Of a DNA stretch of 41,157 nt, positions 23,552 through 34,220 are shown in pieces. Below the pieces are notes generated by a model. It was not told the origin of the DNA. It saw only the letters and a list, made by a program, of their open reading frames with translations, and did not search any database. Position 1 is the stretch's first letter; each line of letters begins with the position of its first letter. Location of the stretch: positions 1-41,157 of the forward strand of contig NZ_VWSJ01000034.1 in the NCBI RefSeq assembly GCF_009690845.1, given 5' to 3'. The DNA comes from Campylobacter portucalensis. GTDB taxonomy: Bacteria; Campylobacterota; Campylobacteria; Campylobacterales; Campylobacteraceae. Position numbers and translations under genes: made by a program.

Positions 23552-24226
23552 TTATTTCTCTTTTAAGCCTTTTTCTAGCATAATTTTTCTAAGTTCAGTT
23601 TCAAATTCACACCCTTTTTTATATTCTAAATCACACCCTTTTTGAAAATACTTTAAAGCACTATCAAAATTTATATCAACACCTAAACCATTAAAATATA
23701 ATGTTCCTAAATTTGAGCAAGCTTCGCCTTCATTTAGTTCACACGCTTTTTTATAAAATTCAAATGCTTTTGCGTGATTTTGCTTTACCCCATCTCCATT
23801 TTCATATTGATAAGCAAGTTGAGAACAAGAAAAAGCATTATTTAACTCACACCCTTTTTGAAAATATTTAAAAGCCTCTATAAAATTTAAATCGACCCCA
23901 TCACCCCTAAAATATAAAACGCCTAAATTTGAACATCCAAGCCCATCACCTAACTCACACCCTTTTTTGTATAGCTCTATAGCTTTTTGCTTATCTACTT
24001 TAAAACCAAGACCATTATCGTAAAAATAGCCTAAATTTGTACATCCCTTAGCATTATTGTTTTTGCATAAATTTTCATAAATTTCTTTTGATTTGTCGTA
24101 TTTTTTATCTTCAAAAGCACTAAATGCTTCATTAAAATAATCTCTTTTTGATGAATTTTCATCTTTTTTCATCGAATTTGCATTGCTAAAAATAATAATC
24201 AAGCTTAAAAATATTAATTTTTTCAT
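23552..24226 (-). CDS. Sel1-repeat/Hcp-type cysteine-rich periplasmic protein
   Basis: A 224-residue protein with a signal peptide ([18 protein letters not shown]). About five 36-residue Sel1-like repeats follow; each carries a pair of cysteines spaced to form a disulfide within the repeat (for example [19 protein letters not shown]), the pattern of Helicobacter cysteine-rich proteins. Such proteins are secreted or periplasmic scaffolds; individual partners are mostly unknown. The frame continues upstream to 24370 across the tmRNA 5' end, but the ATG at 24226 has AAGGAT at proper spacing and begins the signal peptide. The promoter lies between this gene and the divergent tmRNA gene. Confidence 0.87.
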
Positions 24227-24310
24227 AAAAATCCTTTTTGAAATTTGAAGCCATATTTTACCAAATTTTCTTGAAAAATAGTAAAATTTGACTTTTTTTT
24301 TGAAAAACAG

Positions 24311-24316
24311 TAAAAT
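24311..24316 (+). promoter_or_regulatory. Possible -10 box of the tmRNA gene
   Basis: TAAAAT, 18 bp before the mature 5' end of tmRNA, behind a run of nine T. The spacing leaves a short 5' leader to be removed by RNase P. Confidence 0.35.
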
Positions 24317-24333
24317 ACCGCCTATATTTTTTT

Positions 24334-24695
24334 GGGGGTGACTTGGCTTCGACAGGAGTGGAGTGATCACAGTGGCATGTCGCTTTGAACAAAGCGTTAA
24401 AAGTTCAAATTAAAATTAAACGCAAATAACGTTAAATTTGCTCCTGCTTACGCAAAAGTAGCGTAAGTTCAGTTGAGCCTTGCTAAGTGCTGATACTATT
24501 TAGGTGCTTGTGCGAGTCATTTTTAATAGTGTAGTTTAGGTGTTTGACGAGCATTTAGATGAAATTTTAGTCTTAGTCTAAAAGTATGGTTTTGGAAAGT
24601 GAGCCTTTTTAGATGAATTTTTCACTTTTGCTAAACATGTAGAGGCTTTGAAATTTTGCTTTTGGACTGCGGTTCGACACCGCACACCTCCACCA
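24334..24695 (+). ncRNA. ssrA: tmRNA (10Sa RNA)
   Basis: tmRNA rescues stalled ribosomes and tags the unfinished peptide for degradation. The 5' end GGGGGTGACTTGGCTTCGACAG pairs its first seven bases with the 3' acceptor strand CACCTCC before the encoded ACCA; the T-loop GGTTCGACACC is intact. The tag frame starts at GCA (24422) and ends at TAA (24464-24466), giving ANNVKFAPAYAKVA, close to the known Campylobacter tag. About 362 nt. The 3' end marks the start of the accessory-looking region, and I found no second copy of it that would mark an attachment site. Confidence 0.97.
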
Positions 24696-25249: not shown

Positions 25250-25582
25250 TTAATATTTTTTCATTATATGCAAACAACTTCTTACTCTACTAAAACCAAC
25301 ATAAGAATTTAAAATATCATCACTGCTTAAATCAATACAAATTATGATATCATTTTCTAATCCTTTAAAATCCTTAATCGTTGAAAAGCCTATTTTTCTA
25401 TCTTGCTTGCAACCAAAATCATCTAAAACGGTAATTAAATTTTTATATTTTTGTGATAAATCTTTAACCATTGAATCAAAATATAAATTTGGTGATAAGA
25501 TAGTAATATCGCCTAAAAATATATTTTTTGATATTAAATTTTCTATTAAATCTTCTAAATTTTTTAATAGAACTATCCATAA
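25250..25582 (-). pseudogene. C-terminal remnant of an SF1 (UvrD-like/NERD-type) helicase
   Basis: An open stretch of about 110 codons without a proper beginning. Read in its frame it contains ITILSPNLYFDSMVKDL, then FSTIKDFKGLENDIIICID and SYVGFSRVRSCLHI. These match the end of UvrD-type superfamily 1 helicases, where (T)xxxFKGLE..VI is motif V and YVxxSRAR is motif VI. Walker A, Walker B and everything upstream are missing. The frame overlaps the end of drmB by 107 bp in another phase, so the 5' part of this gene was probably lost in a deletion ending in or near drmB. Confidence 0.65.
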
Positions 25583-27383
25583 TTACAACTTCCATTCCAT
25601 CACCAATTTCACTGTTTCTAACATCTGCTTTTAGGTTATTTTGTATAAATGATAGAATTGGAACACCTCTATCATTTCCTTTAATAAAAATTCTATCTAA
25701 ACATAAATTTGAGTATGAACAACTCACCTCTGAAGTTAGCACACAAGCATGACAAGCCGCCATATTTAACCACGCCACGCCTTGACCGGTTTGTTCGCTA
25801 CAAACTGGATCCATAGAACACCAAAGAGCTCTTTGAAGTGCTTTATTTAGTAGTTTTATAAAATTTTCAGGTTTTGCGTTTTGCTCTATACCACCAAGAG
25901 TGCCTATCTCATCTGCAACTGAAGTGTATATTAATATACCAGCCATATTGTTTATTTTAGAACTATAAATTCTCTCTTTTAATGATGCTTCTGGGTAACC
26001 CGAGTTTATAACTAACTCTTTTATTATAAGATGTGATAAGGTATGAAGTAGTAAAAATCTAGGTTCAATTACTACATTTTCAAAAGCGGAGTTATGGCTA
26101 TCATTTATTCTTTTTTTAAATTCACTTGTTCTATTTTTTATAGTGCTATTTTCTTCCCAAATTTTTAAAAATCTCTCATCTAAACTAAAAAATATCCCCT
26201 CACCAAATAACTCAATAGCAGGTAGGTATTTAGAACTTCCATCAATATCTGGCTTTACTAAATTTTCTTTAATATCAGCTTCTATCCTATAAAATCCATT
26301 AAAAATTACAATCTCTCTTAGTTTTTTTACGGATACTAAATTTGATACTATCTTTACTAAAAATTTAGCATCTTCTATGTCTGATAATTTTTTAAAATCA
26401 TCTGTATAGTGTTTTGTAACAAAATCTTCACTATCGTCCATATCATCAAATTTAGTAGTTAAAGCTTTATATTCTTCTTTTAATAGGTCTAGTTTTGTAA
26501 AGTCCTTGCCATAATCTGGATAGCCATTTTTTATATCGTTTATAGCATTTATTAACTCATCTTTTGTGCATTTAAATTTATGCATATATATTTCAGGTCT
26601 AAATTTAATTTTATTAATTATTAATTTTTTATAAAGCTCTTCATTGTTTAAAATCATCTCTCTTAGGTCGTTTTTGCTAATTCTAGATTCTGGTGGTATT
26701 ACAAGTGCTGCTGTTTTTTTAGGTATGTAAATTCTAGAATCATTTATAGATAAAATTTGTGCTTTTTGCTTATCATCTAATTTTTTACTTTGAGAAATCC
26801 AGGGCTGAATTTTGCTAAAATATTTAGGAAAATAACTATCTATTTTGCCACTTGAGCCACATTTTTTACAAGTTATAGTAGGTGTTTGTTCGTGATTATT
26901 AAATTTAAGATAAGCGTTTTGTAAATCACGTTTGCAATTTCCATCATTATTTTGATGTGCAACATTATGCCATAAAACATCGTCCATATAGCCATTTGAA
27001 CTAACTTGACAATGTGGAATTTGTTCTAAATTACCACCGCATTTGCATTTTAATTCTTGGTTATCTTTAAAAGGATTTTGATATATTAGCCCACATTTTT
27101 TACAAAAACAAGATTTTGGAAAGATGGTAGATTGCAAATAAGTTCCAATTAATTCTCCTTTGTTGTTAATATCTCCAGTTGGTGGAAAAATTAGCTTTTT
27201 ATTTATACCTAAACTGTCTCTTATTCTTTTTGTATGTTTTATCTCTAAATCATCTGAAATTATCCAAGATTTTATATCTTTTAAAGTTGTAAAAAATTTG
27301 TTATTATCTCTTATTATAGAGCCTATACCAGCGTATGAAAGTAAGTGTGAAAATCTTCTTTTCATATAGTCATTATTCATCAA
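25476..27383 (-). CDS. drmB: DISARM component DrmB (DUF1998), probably an orphan with altered C terminus
   Basis: A 635-residue protein with the DrmB layout: an opening RFSHLLSYAGIGSIIRD, zinc-finger-like cysteine sets (C115 to C140 region, with CFCKKCG and CKCGG, and later CKKCGSSG), and the DUF1998 end MAACHACVLTSEVSCSYSNLCLDR. DrmB works with the DrmA helicase to block phage DNA entering the cell. Its ATG overlaps the drmA stop (ATGA). The last 25 or so residues are basic and aromatic (RRFNRKFNIKKYIFRR) and are read from DNA that in the next frame encodes a helicase tail, so the natural C terminus has been replaced. With drmA broken, function is doubtful. Confidence 0.8.
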   Translation of the reverse strand: MMNNDYMKRRFSHLLSYAGIGSIIRDNNKFFTTLKDIKSWIISDDLEIKHTKRIRDSLGINKKLIFPPTGDINNKGELIGTYLQSTIFPKSCFCKKCGLIYQNPFKDNQELKCKCGGNLEQIPHCQVSSNGYMDDVLWHNVAHQNNDGNCKRDLQNAYLKFNNHEQTPTITCKKCGSSGKIDSYFPKYFSKIQPWISQSKKLDDKQKAQILSINDSRIYIPKKTAALVIPPESRISKNDLREMILNNEELYKKLIINKIKFRPEIYMHKFKCTKDELINAINDIKNGYPDYGKDFTKLDLLKEEYKALTTKFDDMDDSEDFVTKHYTDDFKKLSDIEDAKFLVKIVSNLVSVKKLREIVIFNGFYRIEADIKENLVKPDIDGSSKYLPAIELFGEGIFFSLDERFLKIWEENSTIKNRTSEFKKRINDSHNSAFENVVIEPRFLLLHTLSHLIIKELVINSGYPEASLKERIYSSKINNMAGILIYTSVADEIGTLGGIEQNAKPENFIKLLNKALQRALWCSMDPVCSEQTGQGVAWLNMAACHACVLTSEVSCSYSNLCLDRIFIKGNDRGVPILSFIQNNLKADVRNSEIGDGMEVVIMDSSIKKFRRFNRKFNIKKYIFRRYYYLITKFIF

Positions 27384-27997
27384 GACTCCTTTTTCATAGT
27401 TCTTATAAGTGCATTTTTTTCTACATTTCTCATAGATCTAAGTGTTTTCCAAAGTCCTTTTTTAGGATCATCATCAAAACCTCTTAGTAAATTTAGGCTT
27501 GAGTTATATGTATTTGAGTAGCAAAGTTTATAGTTTAAAGAGAGTGCTTCTTTTTGTTTTTCTTGCCACATTAAAATTAGCTCATCAATGTGTTTTTGGG
27601 TATTAATTATTTGACTATCACTAGTTCTAGCAATTCTTTTTATGAAAGTTTTAATAATATCTTTTACTAAATCGTCATCAAAATTAATATCTTTTGGTGC
27701 ATCATTTGGTGTAAATTTAGAATTTGAGTGTCTTATACAAAAAATTAAAGCCGCATGTAAAGCCCTATCTCTTGCTTGTTTAGTAAATGGTGTTATGCTA
27801 GTTGGCTCAACAAAAGTGTAAAAATTACTATGATAACTAATAAAATTTTCATAAAAAGAGATATTTCTAGCTTCAGTTTTATGATAATTTGTAAAAACAA
27901 TTCCTGGAGTTGAAGCTCTACCAACTCTACTGCTTGCTTGGATATATTCAGCTGTAGTTCCAGGCTGACCATTGATAATCATAAGTCCTATTTTAAA
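27380..27997 (-). pseudogene. drmA: drmA C-terminal fragment (helicase motif VI onward)
   Basis: The fragment encodes the end of the DrmA helicase: KIGLMIINGQPGTT, then the SF2 motif VI AEYIQASSRVGR, and the C-terminal domain ending in SMRNVEKNALIRTMKKES. In intact DrmA this follows several hundred residues of DEAD/DEAH helicase core, all missing here. An ATG at 27982 could initiate a 200-residue peptide, and the frame is open a little further upstream to the deletion joint. The stop overlaps the drmB start (ATGA), so the downstream junction is native. Confidence 0.8.
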
Positions 27998-29028
27998 TTT
28001 GAGATGGAATTTAGCATCCTTTTTGCAGTAATTTTTTGTTTATTTACTATATTTTTAGCAGTTTTTTTATCGTTTTCTAAATTAGCTTTTTGGCTTTGAT
28101 TTTCTATCCATTCTATATAATTTTTTACAAAATTATTTAAACCTATAAAGCTATTTTCATCTAAATTTTTAAGATTTTTAAATTTTAAAATTTCATTATT
28201 ACCATAGTTACTTGCACTACTTACTGGAATTTCAAATTTAGGTAAAAAATCAGCTTTTAGTTCAATTATATTATTTTTATGAAATTTCCAAGAAGCAGCC
28301 CAGCCATGCCCTACAGCATAAATTTCATTATCTTGATATCTTAGCTTTAACTCTTTTTCTTCATCATCTAAAAAAATATCATCATTGTTTGGATAGTTTC
28401 CTATTTTGTCACTATCTAAAAAGCATTTTAACTCAACCTCAAATAAACTTAATCTATTTTGATCAAAAGTAAGAGTTTTTATATCGCTATCAAATAGTTT
28501 TTGTTGATTTATAATAGTTATGGTAAAAATATATCCATTTTTTATTTTTCTAGGTAGAATTTCTATACTTGCCTTATTGTTAAAAATGTTATATCTTGTT
28601 TTTTCTTTACTAAATTTATAGTTTATATACTCGCCATCTGTTGAAAAATAACTTTTTTCCCATCTAGTTGTTTTAAATCTACCAAACTCATCTCTTAAAT
28701 CTTTAGTATAATAAGCTGCTTTAAAGTAAATATCAAAATCAAGTGATTCTTCACTACTAAAAAATGAAAATCCAACACTAGATGGTGGTATATAATATCT
28801 TGTTTTTTTATCTTTTTTGTCGCTTGCATCTTCATCTGTTTCATCTTCTTCTAAATCTTTAAAGTTATCTAATAACTCATATTTTTCTCTTTCAGTGATG
28901 GGAAACAAAAACCCTGTAAAATATCTATCTAGTGGATTTATATTTAATATAATATCATTACCGCAACCAGTTAATTCTTTTTCTATAAAATTTACAAACT
29001 CTTCTCTTTTTTGTGAAATTTCTATCAT
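27988..29028 (-). pseudogene. drmA: drmA N-terminal fragment
   Basis: The 346-residue frame matches the N-terminal, pre-helicase part of DrmA: an opening like REEFVNFIEKELTGCGND, LDRYFTGFLFP, a low-complexity acidic patch (EEDETDEDASDKKDKK) near 78-93, and IPPSSVGFSFF. It ends at a TAG after RMLNSISNLK, where the helicase core should begin. The remaining C-terminal part starts within a few bases but in another frame. The ATG overlaps the metI stop (ATGA). This could still be translated as a truncated protein, but without motifs I to V it cannot be a helicase. Confidence 0.75.
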
Positions 29029-29849
29029 TTCTTGACTTTTTTATAAATTTGATTTCCCGTCATTTGCACTATTTGAACCATAGCAATTAAAATTATAACC
29101 GTATAAAGCATAATGTCGCCTCTAAATCTTTGAAAGCCATATCTTATAGCAACATCTCCAAGACCGCCACCACCTAAAGTTCCTGCCATAGCTGAAAAGC
29201 CAATAACTACGATGATAGTTAGAGTTAAAACATTAATTAGCGATGGAACCGCTTCAACTAACATAACTCTAAAGATAATTTGAGTTTTACTAGCTCCAAA
29301 GCTTTTTGCCGCTTCAATCACCCCTTTATCAACTTCAATCAAGGCATTTTCTATAAGTCTAGCCATAAAAGGAGCCGTACCAATGGTAAGTGGAACGATA
29401 GCAGCGTCTGTGCCAATGCTAGTTCCAATAATTAGCCTAACAAAAGGGAAAAGCACGATTATAAGCACGATAAAAGGAAAACTTCTAAAAACATTAATGA
29501 TAAAATCAAGTACATTATAAATAGGTCTGTTTTCCAACAAGCCATCTTTTCTGGTAAAAACTAAAATAATTGCTAAAAATAAGCCTAAAATAGCAGCAAA
29601 AACAGTAGAAGTTATAGTCATATAAAGAGTTTCCCAAGCAGCAACTAATAGTATATCTATTAATATTTTATATGATTTGTTTCCTAAAATTTCTTTTAAA
29701 CTAACCGCCCAGCCATCAAAAAGCGTCCTAAAAAAAGGAGTTTGTTTAAAAAATATCTTGTCAATACTTTCAAAAATATTTTCACCCATAAAAAAAGGAT
29801 AGATAAAAAATAGCCCTAAAATTAAAGTTAAAAATATAATTTTTTTCAT
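29025..29849 (-). CDS. metI: D-methionine ABC transporter permease MetI
   Basis: The membrane permease of the methionine importer. The 274 residues include the typical MetI core: FRSFPFIVLIIVLFP, the cytoplasmic EAA loop EAAKSFGASKTQIIFR, and AGTLGGGGLGDVAIRYGF. Compared with the roughly 217-residue enterobacterial protein it has an N-terminal extension of about 55 residues, including an extra hydrophobic segment at 3-20. AAGGAG lies 7 bp before the ATG. metN is upstream but separated from it by a Sel1 gene. The expected binding-protein gene metQ does not follow; the DISARM remnant starts at the stop codon instead. Confidence 0.92.
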   Translation of the reverse strand: MKKIIFLTLILGLFFIYPFFMGENIFESIDKIFFKQTPFFRTLFDGWAVSLKEILGNKSYKILIDILLVAAWETLYMTITSTVFAAILGLFLAIILVFTRKDGLLENRPIYNVLDFIINVFRSFPFIVLIIVLFPFVRLIIGTSIGTDAAIVPLTIGTAPFMARLIENALIEVDKGVIEAAKSFGASKTQIIFRVMLVEAVPSLINVLTLTIIVVIGFSAMAGTLGGGGLGDVAIRYGFQRFRGDIMLYTVIILIAMVQIVQMTGNQIYKKVKK

Positions 29850-29879
29850 AATAGCTCCTTATTAAAATTTATTTATTAC

Positions 29880-29922
29880 TTCCCATAAAACGCCAGTTTT
29901 TTTGAGATAATTTACTACTTTT
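29880..29922. repeat. Copy 1 of 43-bp direct repeat (metN 3' end)
   Basis: Identical over 43 bp to 30598-30640. Read on the minus strand and extended, it encodes a metN-like tail ending VLWEVINKF and a stop right before the metI ribosome site. It therefore looks like the original 3' end of metN, left behind when the Sel1 gene was inserted. Confidence 0.93.
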
Positions 29923-29944
29923 CATTTATCAAAATTTAATAAAT

Positions 29945-30568
29945 TTAATAACCTTTTTTATTTAATTTAGCGTATTCCTCACAACCTATTTGAAGCCCTA
30001 AATCGCAAGCTCTACCAAAATACTCTTTTGCTTTAATATGATCTTGTTTAACACCTTCACCAAGGTTATACAAAAAACCAATAGCAACACAATTATTGGC
30101 ATTTTTACCATCACAAGCTAATTTTAAATATTTAAAAGCCTCTTTATAATCTTGTCTTATGCCTTGACCATTGCCATATAAAAATCCAAGTTTACCGCAA
30201 CCAAAAGCATCTTTACCATCGCAAGCTAATTTTAAATATTTAAAAGCCTCTTTATAATCTTGTCTAACACCTTCGCCATAGTAGTATAAATCCCCAAGAC
30301 CAGTGCAACCAAAAGCCTCTCCACCATCACAAGCTAATTTTAAATATTTAAAAGCCTCTTTATAATTTTGTCTAACACCTTCGCCATAGTAGTATAAATC
30401 CCCAAGCCCAGTGCAACCAAAAGCCTCTCCACCATCACAAGCTAATTTATAGTATTTAAAAGCTTTTTGGTAATTAGCAGTTTCGTAAGCCTTGCGTGCA
30501 ATATCAAAATCATCTCCAAAGCTAAAACCTACCACTAAAAGCATACCTAAAGCTATCTTTTTCATCAT
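29945..30568 (-). CDS. Sel1-repeat protein inserted between metN and metI
   Basis: A protein of about 207 residues with a signal peptide (MKKIALGMLLVVGFSFG) and five 36-residue Sel1/Hcp repeats, each with two cysteines (ACDGGEAFGCTGLGDLYYYGEG). Repeats are nearly identical at DNA level with a 108-bp period, which points to recent expansion. Three ATG codons in a row lie behind GGAG; I take the second (30568), the third is equally possible, and the longer frame to 30604 has no ribosome site. The gene has no known part in methionine transport. It is flanked by a 43-bp direct repeat of the metN 3' end. Confidence 0.85.
   Translation of the reverse strand: MMKKIALGMLLVVGFSFGDDFDIARKAYETANYQKAFKYYKLACDGGEAFGCTGLGDLYYYGEGVRQNYKEAFKYLKLACDGGEAFGCTGLGDLYYYGEGVRQDYKEAFKYLKLACDGKDAFGCGKLGFLYGNGQGIRQDYKEAFKYLKLACDGKNANNCVAIGFLYNLGEGVKQDHIKAKEYFGRACDLGLQIGCEEYAKLNKKGY
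30203..30418. repeat. 108-bp tandem repeats inside the Sel1 gene
   Basis: Two adjacent 108-bp units (30203-30310 and 30311-30418) differ at only a handful of bases; weaker copies lie on both sides. Each unit encodes one 36-residue Sel1 repeat, so copy number can change without breaking the frame. Confidence 0.85.
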
Positions 30569-30582
30569 CATATCTCCAAATT

Positions 30583-31545
30583 TTATTTTTTCACAATTTC
30601 CCATAAAACGCCAGTTTTTTTGAGATAATTTACTACTTTTTCTTTATCTTTTGGATCTATGTTTATAACTAAATGTCCTAAAACTAGGTCGCTTAATTGC
30701 TCAATCTTACCCCAAACTATATTAAAATTAATATCCAAATTTCTTGCCATCTGAGTTATAACGCACTCAAAAGCAACATCTTTTGGAAAATAAATAGCTA
30801 TATTAATACCATCTTTTGGAACTATCATCTTTTCGCCTAAAAATTCACGCATATTTTCATCGGGTTTTAAGAAAAGTTCGTGAATTTCGCCTTGATTTGT
30901 TATAATGCCTTTGCTTAAAAGAACGGCTTTATTTGCTATAGTTTTTACAACATCCATCTCATGAGTAACTAAAACTATAGTAATGCCAAATTCTTTATTT
31001 ATGCGTTTTAGAAGTTCTAAAATTTGATTTGTTATATTTGGATCAAGGGCTGAAGTAGCTTCGTCTGAAAGTAAAATTTTAGGATTTAAAGCTAACGCTC
31101 TAGCAATTGCAACGCGTTGTTTTTGTCCGCCTGAAAGCTCGCTTGGATAGCTGTATTTTTTATCGATTAAGCCAACTATTTCTAAAAGTTCATCTACTCT
31201 TTTTTGAGTATGATTTTTATCATATCCCCAAAAATTTAGTGGCATTGCAACATTATCAAATACATTTTTTCTACTCATTAATGCAAAATGTTGAAATATC
31301 ATACCTATATTTTTTCTAAGCTCTCTTAAATCTTTACCTTTTAGATTTTTAATTTCAACGCCATTTACTTTTAAGCTTCCATCTTGATAATTTTCAAGTC
31401 CGTTAATTAGGCGAAGTAGGGTGCTTTTGCCAGCACCGCTATGTCCAACTAGACCAAAAATTTCACCTTGATTTATGGTAAAGTTAATATCTTTTAAAAC
31501 TTCTACCTCTTTATATTTTTTACTTAAATTTTTAACTTCTATCAT
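30583..31545 (-). CDS. metN: D-methionine ABC transporter ATP-binding protein MetN
   Basis: A 320-residue ATPase of the methionine importer. Walker [10 protein letters not shown] at about 34-42, signature LSGGQKQR near 139-146, Walker [13 protein letters not shown] near 160-171, and the H-loop VTHEMD. The last 90 residues form the NIL domain, which binds methionine and shuts down transport when the cell is replete. Its last residues (VLWEIVKK) differ from the displaced tail further down (VLWEVINKF), showing that the 3' end was exchanged when the Sel1 gene entered. It follows the DUF302 gene by 26 bp. Confidence 0.94.
30598..30640. repeat. Copy 2 of 43-bp direct repeat (metN 3' end)
   Basis: Identical to 29880-29922, 718 bp away, and in the same orientation. 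This copy forms the present C-terminal codons of metN. Confidence 0.93.
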
Positions 31546-32089: not shown

Positions 32090-32458
32090 TTATTCTTTAA
32101 AGATAAAATAAACAGCTAGTATTAAAAAAATAAAACCAATTAGATGATTTAACCTAAAAGTTTCATTTTTAAAAACCAAAAGTGTAAAAATGCTAAACAC
32201 ACTTAAAGTTATAACTTCTTGTAAAACCTTTAATTGCCAAATGTTAAATGCCCCGCCATTTTCTACAAATCCATAGCGATTTGCTGGAACTTGGAAGCAG
32301 TATTCAAAAAACGCTATCCCCCAGCTAATTACGATTATCCAGATTAAACTAAGAGAACTAAAAGCAGGAATTTTACTAAATTTCAAATGCCCATACCAAG
32401 CAAGTGTCATAAAAATATTTGACATAATTAAAAGCATAATTGTGTAGTGTGGTTTCAT
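32090..32458 (-). CDS. DUF486-family small membrane protein (DMT-like)
   Basis: A 122-residue inner-membrane protein with four transmembrane helices. The phrase ISWGIAFFEYCFQVPANRYG and the following W-LKVLQEVITL are typical of DUF486, distantly related to drug/metabolite transporters. Function unknown. Its ATG overlaps the stop of the restriction gene (ATGA), so it is the last gene of the chain that begins with valS. Confidence 0.9.
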   Translation of the reverse strand: MKPHYTIMLLIMSNIFMTLAWYGHLKFSKIPAFSSLSLIWIIVISWGIAFFEYCFQVPANRYGFVENGGAFNIWQLKVLQEVITLSVFSIFTLLVFKNETFRLNHLIGFIFLILAVYFIFKE

Positions 32459-33171
32459 TTATTACCTTGGATAATGTAATTTAAAATCTCTAAACAGTCG
32501 TACTTATGAGCTTTGCTTAAAAGTCCAAATATCTTAAAAATTTTTATAAAAATTAAGATATTGTTGTTATTTATCTCTAAATATCCACTTTCCTTACTAT
32601 TTATTTTTCTACCTATAAAACTAAAATTACCGTTTTTATCTTTGATGCTTGCCAAACTTATACAAAAATAAAGCATAGGTATTGTGCCAACTGCTCTTTG
32701 CTTTTCACGAACAATAATTTCACAAAGCAAATCATCGTTTTGAAATTTGCTAATTAGAAGTGGGTAGCTAACTTTTGATTTTAAAAATTCAATATTATTT
32801 ATAGTTTCTGGCACAAAATGAGAACGAGTAATTGATTCTTTTTCATCTATAAAAATTTTGTTATCTCCAATTTCATTTTTTAAATTTTCTAAAATTTCAA
32901 ATGATATAAGACTATTTTCTAGCCCAAATTTTAAAAATTCACTTAATTCATAAATTTGTTTATTTTTACCATTTGCACCGATAAAATGAATATTTTCGCC
33001 TTTTTCTATAACTCTATCATAACCTATTTGCCATTCTATATAATGTTTTGGAGTTATAATAGTTTTAGTTGGAGCAATAGGTACTCCATAATCATTAAAG
33101 GCAAGTCTTTCTTTTATTCTAATTTTGCCTGTTATTTTAGTGAGTGGAAATTCATAAATTAAATTTGGCAT
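32455..33171 (-). CDS. R.PabI-family restriction DNA glycosylase
   Basis: A 238-residue protein resembling R.PabI, a restriction enzyme that cuts by removing adenines from 5'-GTAC rather than by hydrolysing phosphodiesters. Candidate active-site residues fit the known set by spacing: E46 and Y51 in IEWQIGYDR correspond to E63 and Y68 of R.PabI, and H222 and D225 in KAHKYD to H211 and D214. No PD-(D/E)XK or HNH motif is present. The gene overlaps the methyltransferase gene by 13 bp, with AGGAC before the ATG. Relatives occur in Helicobacter. Target GTAC is inferred from the family. Confidence 0.78.
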   Translation of the reverse strand: MPNLIYEFPLTKITGKIRIKERLAFNDYGVPIAPTKTIITPKHYIEWQIGYDRVIEKGENIHFIGANGKNKQIYELSEFLKFGLENSLISFEILENLKNEIGDNKIFIDEKESITRSHFVPETINNIEFLKSKVSYPLLISKFQNDDLLCEIIVREKQRAVGTIPMLYFCISLASIKDKNGNFSFIGRKINSKESGYLEINNNNILIFIKIFKIFGLLSKAHKYDCLEILNYIIQGNK

Positions 33172-34220
33172 ATATGTCCTTTAAACAGATCTTTAAAGTA
33201 ATTTTCTATGATTTGTTTTCTTTTTAGTTCTAAAAATTCATCTGATATTTTTAAAAATTCACTATTGTTTATAAAAATATCTAAATTTCCAAAATAATAT
33301 GGAAGCTTATTAGCATATTGTTTAAAATGATGAATATAGCAGTAATATTTCAGATTTTCTTTAAAGATTTTAATGGAATTTGAGTTTTGTTTTTTTTGAA
33401 AAGTTTGATTTCTTTTTAAAGCATTTATGTCTCTTAAAGTGTGAAAATACGCAACAGCTTCTCTTTTATCGTTTGGATTTGGATACTTTCTAACATAATT
33501 TGTTATAAAATCAAAGTCATTTAGCCTAAATTTATGTTTTTCTAAGGTTTTAAACTCAAAATTTTTAATAAAATCATAAGTCATTGCGTGATTATCTTTT
33601 TTATATAGTGCGATAATTATGGGGAAAAATGTGCTTGAATTTGGTGTAAAGATTTCACTGCTTATAACTAAGCCGTCAATTAAAGTATAATTTTCTCTAA
33701 ATTTAGCCAAAGCATTGAAATTTGTTTCTTTTATAAGATATGAAAGTGGGTGCAAAACGCAAACAAATTCTGGCTTTAAAACTGCATAAGAGCGTAAAAA
33801 TGAAATTCCTAAATCTCTAAAAGCTAAATCTTTATCTACTTCAAAAAGTGATTTTTTTATGCTATTTCTAATAATTGAAGTTTTATCATTGTATGGGGGA
33901 TTGCCTATTATTATTAGTTTTTGATTAATGCTAATTTGAAATTTATTTCTGCTAACATTTTTAAGTGAATTTGTGTGAAGTGTGGGAATTTTAAAAGGCA
34001 CTTTTGATAACGCAATCTCATCAATATCAGCTCCTAAATAATTTATATCATCGTAAATAAAAAAATCTCCATATCCGCAGCTACTATCAAAAAGCAAAAA
34101 TTCTTTTAAATTTAGCCTAGACTCAAGCAAATCATAAGCTTTTCTAACGATAAATTTAGGAGTGTAGAAACTTCCTAAATTTATGGTATGAAAACTATTT
34201 AAATGAGATTGAACATTCAT
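33159..34220 (-). CDS. Adenine-specific DNA methyltransferase of the R.PabI-type system
   Basis: A 353-residue N6-adenine methyltransferase. Motif X-like FYTP at 18-21, SAM motif I DSSCGYGDFF at 45-54, acidic D65/D67 of motif II, and catalytic motif IV NPPY at 107-110; the C-terminal half would be the target-recognition region. It should protect the site cut by the adjacent restriction enzyme, presumably GTAC. AAGGA precedes the ATG. It overlaps the membrane-protein gene (ATGA) and the restriction gene, so methyltransferase is made first and in coupling with the nuclease. Confidence 0.85.
   Translation of the reverse strand: MNVQSHLNSFHTINLGSFYTPKFIVRKAYDLLESRLNLKEFLLFDSSCGYGDFFIYDDINYLGADIDEIALSKVPFKIPTLHTNSLKNVSRNKFQISINQKLIIIGNPPYNDKTSIIRNSIKKSLFEVDKDLAFRDLGISFLRSYAVLKPEFVCVLHPLSYLIKETNFNALAKFRENYTLIDGLVISSEIFTPNSSTFFPIIIALYKKDNHAMTYDFIKNFEFKTLEKHKFRLNDFDFITNYVRKYPNPNDKREAVAYFHTLRDINALKRNQTFQKKQNSNSIKIFKENLKYYCYIHHFKQYANKLPYYFGNLDIFINNSEFLKISDEFLELKRKQIIENYFKDLFKGHICQI

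Follow-up and report, generated by a model that had tools for sequence, protein, structure and literature searches.

How did a gene of the Sel1-repeat family come to lie between metN and metI in Campylobacter portucalensis, enclosed by two copies of the metN 3' end? The window, by which we mean the whole 41,157-nucleotide stretch of DNA analysed, is contig NZ_VWSJ01000034.1 (C28 in our numbering) of a 1.77 Mb genome whose genus was sampled with 14 species; judged by metN, its relatives are Campylobacter and kin. On the minus strand the gene order is DUF302 gene, metN, Sel1 gene and metI, and the features of the junction are as follows.

30583..31545, minus strand: metN, methionine ABC transporter ATPase (Pfam ABC_tran and NIL)
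30598..30640, minus strand: upstream copy of the 43-bp repeat, in frame with the metN 3' end
30583-30597, minus strand: putatively foreign new 3' end of metN, last 15 nt, ATTGTGAAAAAATAA, reading IVKK-stop (tails aligned with relatives)
29945..30571, minus strand: apparently inserted Sel1-repeat gene, Hcp-like, cysteine-rich, with a putative signal peptide (Pfam Sel1, E 1e-35; PDB 1ouv, E 6e-62)
29923..29944, minus strand: short AT-rich stretch from the Sel1 stop to the repeat, holding the right-hand joint
29880..29922, minus strand: downstream copy of the 43-bp repeat, the putative stranded native metN tail
29850..29879, minus strand: native metN end (..VINKF-stop; stop codon at 29862-29864) and metI ribosome-binding site AAGGAG
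29025..29849, minus strand: metI, methionine ABC transporter permease (Pfam BPD_transp_1)

The 43-bp direct repeat reported in the original prediction is exact, with both copies (29880-29922 and 30598-30640) in the same direction and the Sel1 gene between them, and it lengthens to 64 bp at 89% identity. The only other exact direct repeats of comparable length in the window are internal to the Sel1 gene, and the longest repeat in first-order Markov replicas of the window never exceeded 20 bp. The upstream copy forms the metN 3' end and reads ...GVLWEIVKK-stop; the downstream copy, past the Sel1 stop, reads ...GVLWEVINKF-stop and is followed by AAGGAG and the ATG of metI. Aligned with the tails of relatives, the two metN ends part abruptly after GGGAA (IVKK-stop against VINKF-stop), as would be expected at a crossover. 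The last codons of metN look foreign and the native tail appears to be the one behind Sel1, which runs into the metI ribosome site; the claims that the downstream copy is the older tail and that metN was given a new 3' end are supported. With just 15 nt, the putatively foreign part of metN is too short for its source to be assigned.

In four congeners (G013, G006, G002 and G001) metN adjoins metI directly, without a Sel1 gene, which supports the proposed insertion into a once tight junction. The two 43-bp copies differ from each other at 0/43 positions, from G013, the nearest species, at 8/43 and from G006 at 9/43. Since the copies are identical while the nearest species differs at eight positions, the metN duplication postdates the splits from G013 and G006, and the event is young. 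G012 carries a Sel1 gene between metN and metI, and Sel1 genes on both sides of metN, while in G003 this junction contains two Sel1 copies in decay, in both cases without a copy of the metN tail; as these two species show, the junction has been used more than once. Sel1 genes are also found upstream of metN, after a small gene, c5, in G013, G005 and G012; we take c5 to be a DMT/DUF486-like gene. Because Sel1 genes are placed differently around metN among the congeners, the stretch from valS to metNI is a variable spot; in the window a restriction-modification pair and, past metI, a broken DISARM locus are found there as well.

Several other features of the neighbourhood were recorded. A type II methyltransferase and restriction enzyme pair lies upstream of c5-metN (32455-34220), and G006 has related genes at this position. 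A broken DISARM locus lies past metI (25476-29028), with a DrmB-like gene at 25476-27383 and DrmA split into 27380-27982 and 27988-29028; the matches of the two DrmA pieces miss the middle of the protein. Unlike in most relatives, metQ is not beside metI (29025), and three metQ copies are located on a different contig (G000:C18:49693-52036). A second Sel1 gene stands beside ruvB (23552-24370), and G013 has one at the same position (L244).

The start of the inserted gene is likeliest among the ATG codons at 30571-30563, and not at 30604 as in the mechanical list of open reading frames. Compared in base composition, the insert has 33% GC and the whole window 27.5%. Its product matches Pfam Sel1 in four stretches and the PDB entries 1ouv (E 6e-62) and 1klx, and it has paired cysteines and an apparent signal peptide, both judged by reading the sequence. 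Because of the apparent signal peptide, the four Sel1 repeats with paired cysteines and the match to 1ouv, which is a secreted protein of H. pylori, we predict a secreted Hcp-like protein. A search for a close donor among 153 genomes of the family found none, the best matches being 55-61% identical. Concerning the host genes, the NIL domain of metN is retained (reaching residue 316 of 320), metI retains its ribosome site, and no terminator-like site was found between Sel1 and metI; we infer that the metN-Sel1-metI operon is still working.

The direction of an event of this kind can be read at the glmS locus of another genus, g5. In G056 glmS is followed by Sel1, by 82 bp duplicated from the glmS 3' end and by the native next gene, and its sister G044 has an empty site, with glmS (99% identical to that of G056 at the protein level) directly before the same next gene. 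In G056 the left-hand glmS keeps native sequence (96.5% to G044) as far as AAGAGCGT, past which it has last codons and a leader (AACGGT-GAATAGGAATTTAATAAAA) of the type found in G017 and G060, two species where glmS-Sel1 is the established order and which the Sel1 gene and about 110 bp of flank behind it also resemble. Native sequence restarts at TTTTTGCTTTGGAAATTT inside glmS and, at 98.5% identity to G044, extends past the native stop. The joint is clearly homologous on one side, and at the right joint TTTTTGC is common to the donor-type flank and native glmS. Because the left end, the Sel1 gene and the flank are of G017/G060 type and the right copy is native, a foreign gene end and Sel1 were added here and a native segment was duplicated. 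In several g5 species (loci L282-L287, in G017, G060, G034, G028 and G087), a Sel1 gene or array immediately behind glmS is the established arrangement.

We consider it likely that the Sel1 gene of the window was acquired horizontally by homology-facilitated illegitimate recombination (HFIR), that is, as an 'insertion with long target duplication'. By analogy, the metN event would have taken the same path as that at glmS, with which it shares an identical repeat, an abrupt divergence before the stop, a native junction downstream and a short sequence common to both sides at the right joint, here GATAAA. On the incoming DNA the Sel1 gene would have stood behind the 3' end of a metN homologue, and a first crossover would have occurred close to the 3' end of the resident metN, where a short homology could be provided by the conserved TTTTATGGGAA (VLWE). 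Beyond this crossover metN would end in the codons brought in (IVKK), with Sel1 behind it, and the other end of the incoming piece would be joined by microhomology, without full homology, 43-50 bp upstream of the first crossover. The resident metN segment would thus be doubled, with the native tail, its stop codon and the metI ribosome site persisting past Sel1. At the right-hand joint (29923..29944), GATAAA-NN-AAAA also stands in native metN; the microhomologies at both loci (TTTTTGC at glmS, GATAAA at metN) are AT-rich and hence weak. The DNA would have been delivered by transformation, a route that is plausible because the genome has ComEC-family and DprA genes, although such genes occur too in bacteria without known transformation.

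As had been predicted, the pattern recurs at other genes, namely at c5 in the congeners G013 and G005 and at glmS in G056. In G013 and G005, tandem Sel1 genes lie behind c5, and after every one of them comes a stretch of about 55 bp copied from the c5 3' end. The c5-Sel1 block was probably itself moved between lineages, because it is more alike in the two species (89%) than metN (71%) or the stretch holding valS (80%). In G079 and G086 tandem Sel1 genes have repeats of a convergent neighbour's 3' end between them, an arrangement accounted for by plain tandem duplication. The survey for tail copies compared 213 Sel1 open reading frames with 959 others from the same loci, and found six Sel1 loci with a copy of a neighbouring gene's 3' end, in four independent groups, one of them a simple tandem duplication; most surveyed Sel1 genes lack such a scar. 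Among the 959 other frames genuine neighbour-tail copies were judged to be absent, a result for which hits to paralogues, CRISPR arrays and dispersed repeats were dismissed by hand. The difference (4/213 against 0/959) gives a Fisher p of 0.001, which serves as a guide only, as the classes were set after the data had been seen. In G013 (L244) a non-Sel1 gene is bracketed by an exact 56-bp repeat, which turned out to be the beginning that two paralogues have in common, and other high-scoring loci were CRISPR arrays (L325) or dispersed repeats (L230, L232, L254 and L347) and not gene tails.

An unlikely alternative is that the arrangement arose locally, by a tandem duplication that later decayed. 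In an ancestor the Sel1 gene would have stood upstream of metN, the Sel1-metN block would have been doubled, and the first Sel1 and most of the second metN would afterwards have been lost, giving metN-Sel1-metN tail-metI. The Sel1 genes just upstream of metN in G013, G005 and G012 (with one on either side in the last) offer a possible starting point, and the duplications in G079 and G086, neighbour's tail included, provide a precedent. Nevertheless, two separate losses are demanded, no Sel1 remnant was found upstream of metN within the window, and the insert at glmS, a locus with traceable sequences, is foreign.

The original prediction had left the choice between a mobile cassette and a recombination-driven gene capture. 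Gene capture is supported, on the evidence of the foreign glmS end, Sel1 and flank rejoined to native DNA, whereas a dedicated cassette or site-specific system that targets and restores gene 3' ends, as islands do at tRNA genes, is very improbable. Such a system would account for three different host genes all being struck at their 3' ends, with all reading frames intact. However, the metN, c5 and glmS repeats have no sequence in common and derive from the resident gene and not from an element, the right glmS copy carries native-type bases, and duplication accounts for the unit borders of the tandem copies in G013 and G005. No recombinase or integrase was identified in the insert or in the neighbouring genes examined (25-36 kb), and no attachment or recombination site, nor any border motif, was found in common among the metN, c5 and glmS insertions. 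We reject a cassette with shared borders because of these unrelated repeats, and the glmS case points to recombination of incoming DNA and not to movement of a defined element. A Tn7-like use of the glmS end was also considered; nothing of that type was observed, and Tn7 leaves 5 bp, a far shorter duplication than the one found here.

Equally remote is a Campbell-type single crossover of a circularised incoming fragment carrying a gene tail and Sel1, which would leave the insert between direct repeats whose length varies, much as duplications of 109-950 bp arose by single-crossover insertion with degraded plasmids in E. coli (PMC3240628), but which predicts a donor-type right-hand copy up to the crossover, while that of glmS is native-type throughout; the metN copies, being identical, are silent on this point.

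The likely reading, HFIR, has known counterparts. Insertion with long target duplication was described in H. pylori (Nobusato et al., 2000, as cited in PMC1643837 and PMC3031569), and its two marks are found here, relatives with an empty site and 43-bp repeats flanking the insert. As far as those citing papers relate it, the H. pylori case likewise has a gene between long, variable direct copies of the target, recognised through relatives with an empty site, in a naturally transformable member of the same phylum, and its repeats permit later tandem amplification. In that account it concerns mainly restriction-modification genes, whereas here a Sel1 family gene is involved, the 3' end of the preceding gene is duplicated, and its last codons appear replaced by foreign ones. 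HFIR itself is known in Streptococcus, Acinetobacter and Pseudomonas stutzeri, and in the laboratory shows 3-10 bp of microhomology at the illegitimate joint, usually with deletions in the recipient (PMC3240628). One end made by homology and the other by 3-10 bp of microhomology would be the likeness to our case; the duplication of 43-82 bp, where laboratory HFIR mostly deletes recipient DNA, counts against this reading, as do the failed search for a close Sel1 donor and the shortness of the putatively foreign metN end. HFIR has also been proposed for the immunity-gene arrays of type VI secretion in Vibrio cholerae (PMC5361080), which resemble our loci in successive gains behind a conserved anchor with parts of the old gene kept downstream; there, toxin-immunity pairs displace effectors, whereas here a single gene is gained and nothing is lost. 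Sel1 genes called slrV are strain-variable and lie in tandem at core-gene junctions in Haemophilus influenzae (PMC4792463), and hcp paralogues differ between H. pylori strains (PMC3608669). According to the parts of these two reports that we drew on, both are strain-variable paralogues of secreted Sel1-repeat proteins, like those treated here, and tail duplication, as seen here, is not described for either.

The metN junction is therefore a new, well-resolved case of a known type of insertion and not a new kind, and the tail scars at several genes represent a recurring but ordinary way for the Sel1 family to move. We doubt that Sel1 genes of Campylobacteraceae go further and enter preferentially at gene 3' ends, by a repeatable capture of gene ends that leaves a native tail scar and is possibly aided by Sel1 units or the uptake machinery, beyond selection among random illegitimate events. 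The glmS locus, with donor-type, recipient-type and empty-site sequences at hand, gives a base-resolution view of the addition of single genes inside unbroken operons. A copy of the upstream gene's 3' end behind a new gene is a scar that can be searched for to find recent acquisitions in naturally transformable bacteria, and it suggests one reason why the number of secreted Sel1 proteins varies so strongly in this group.
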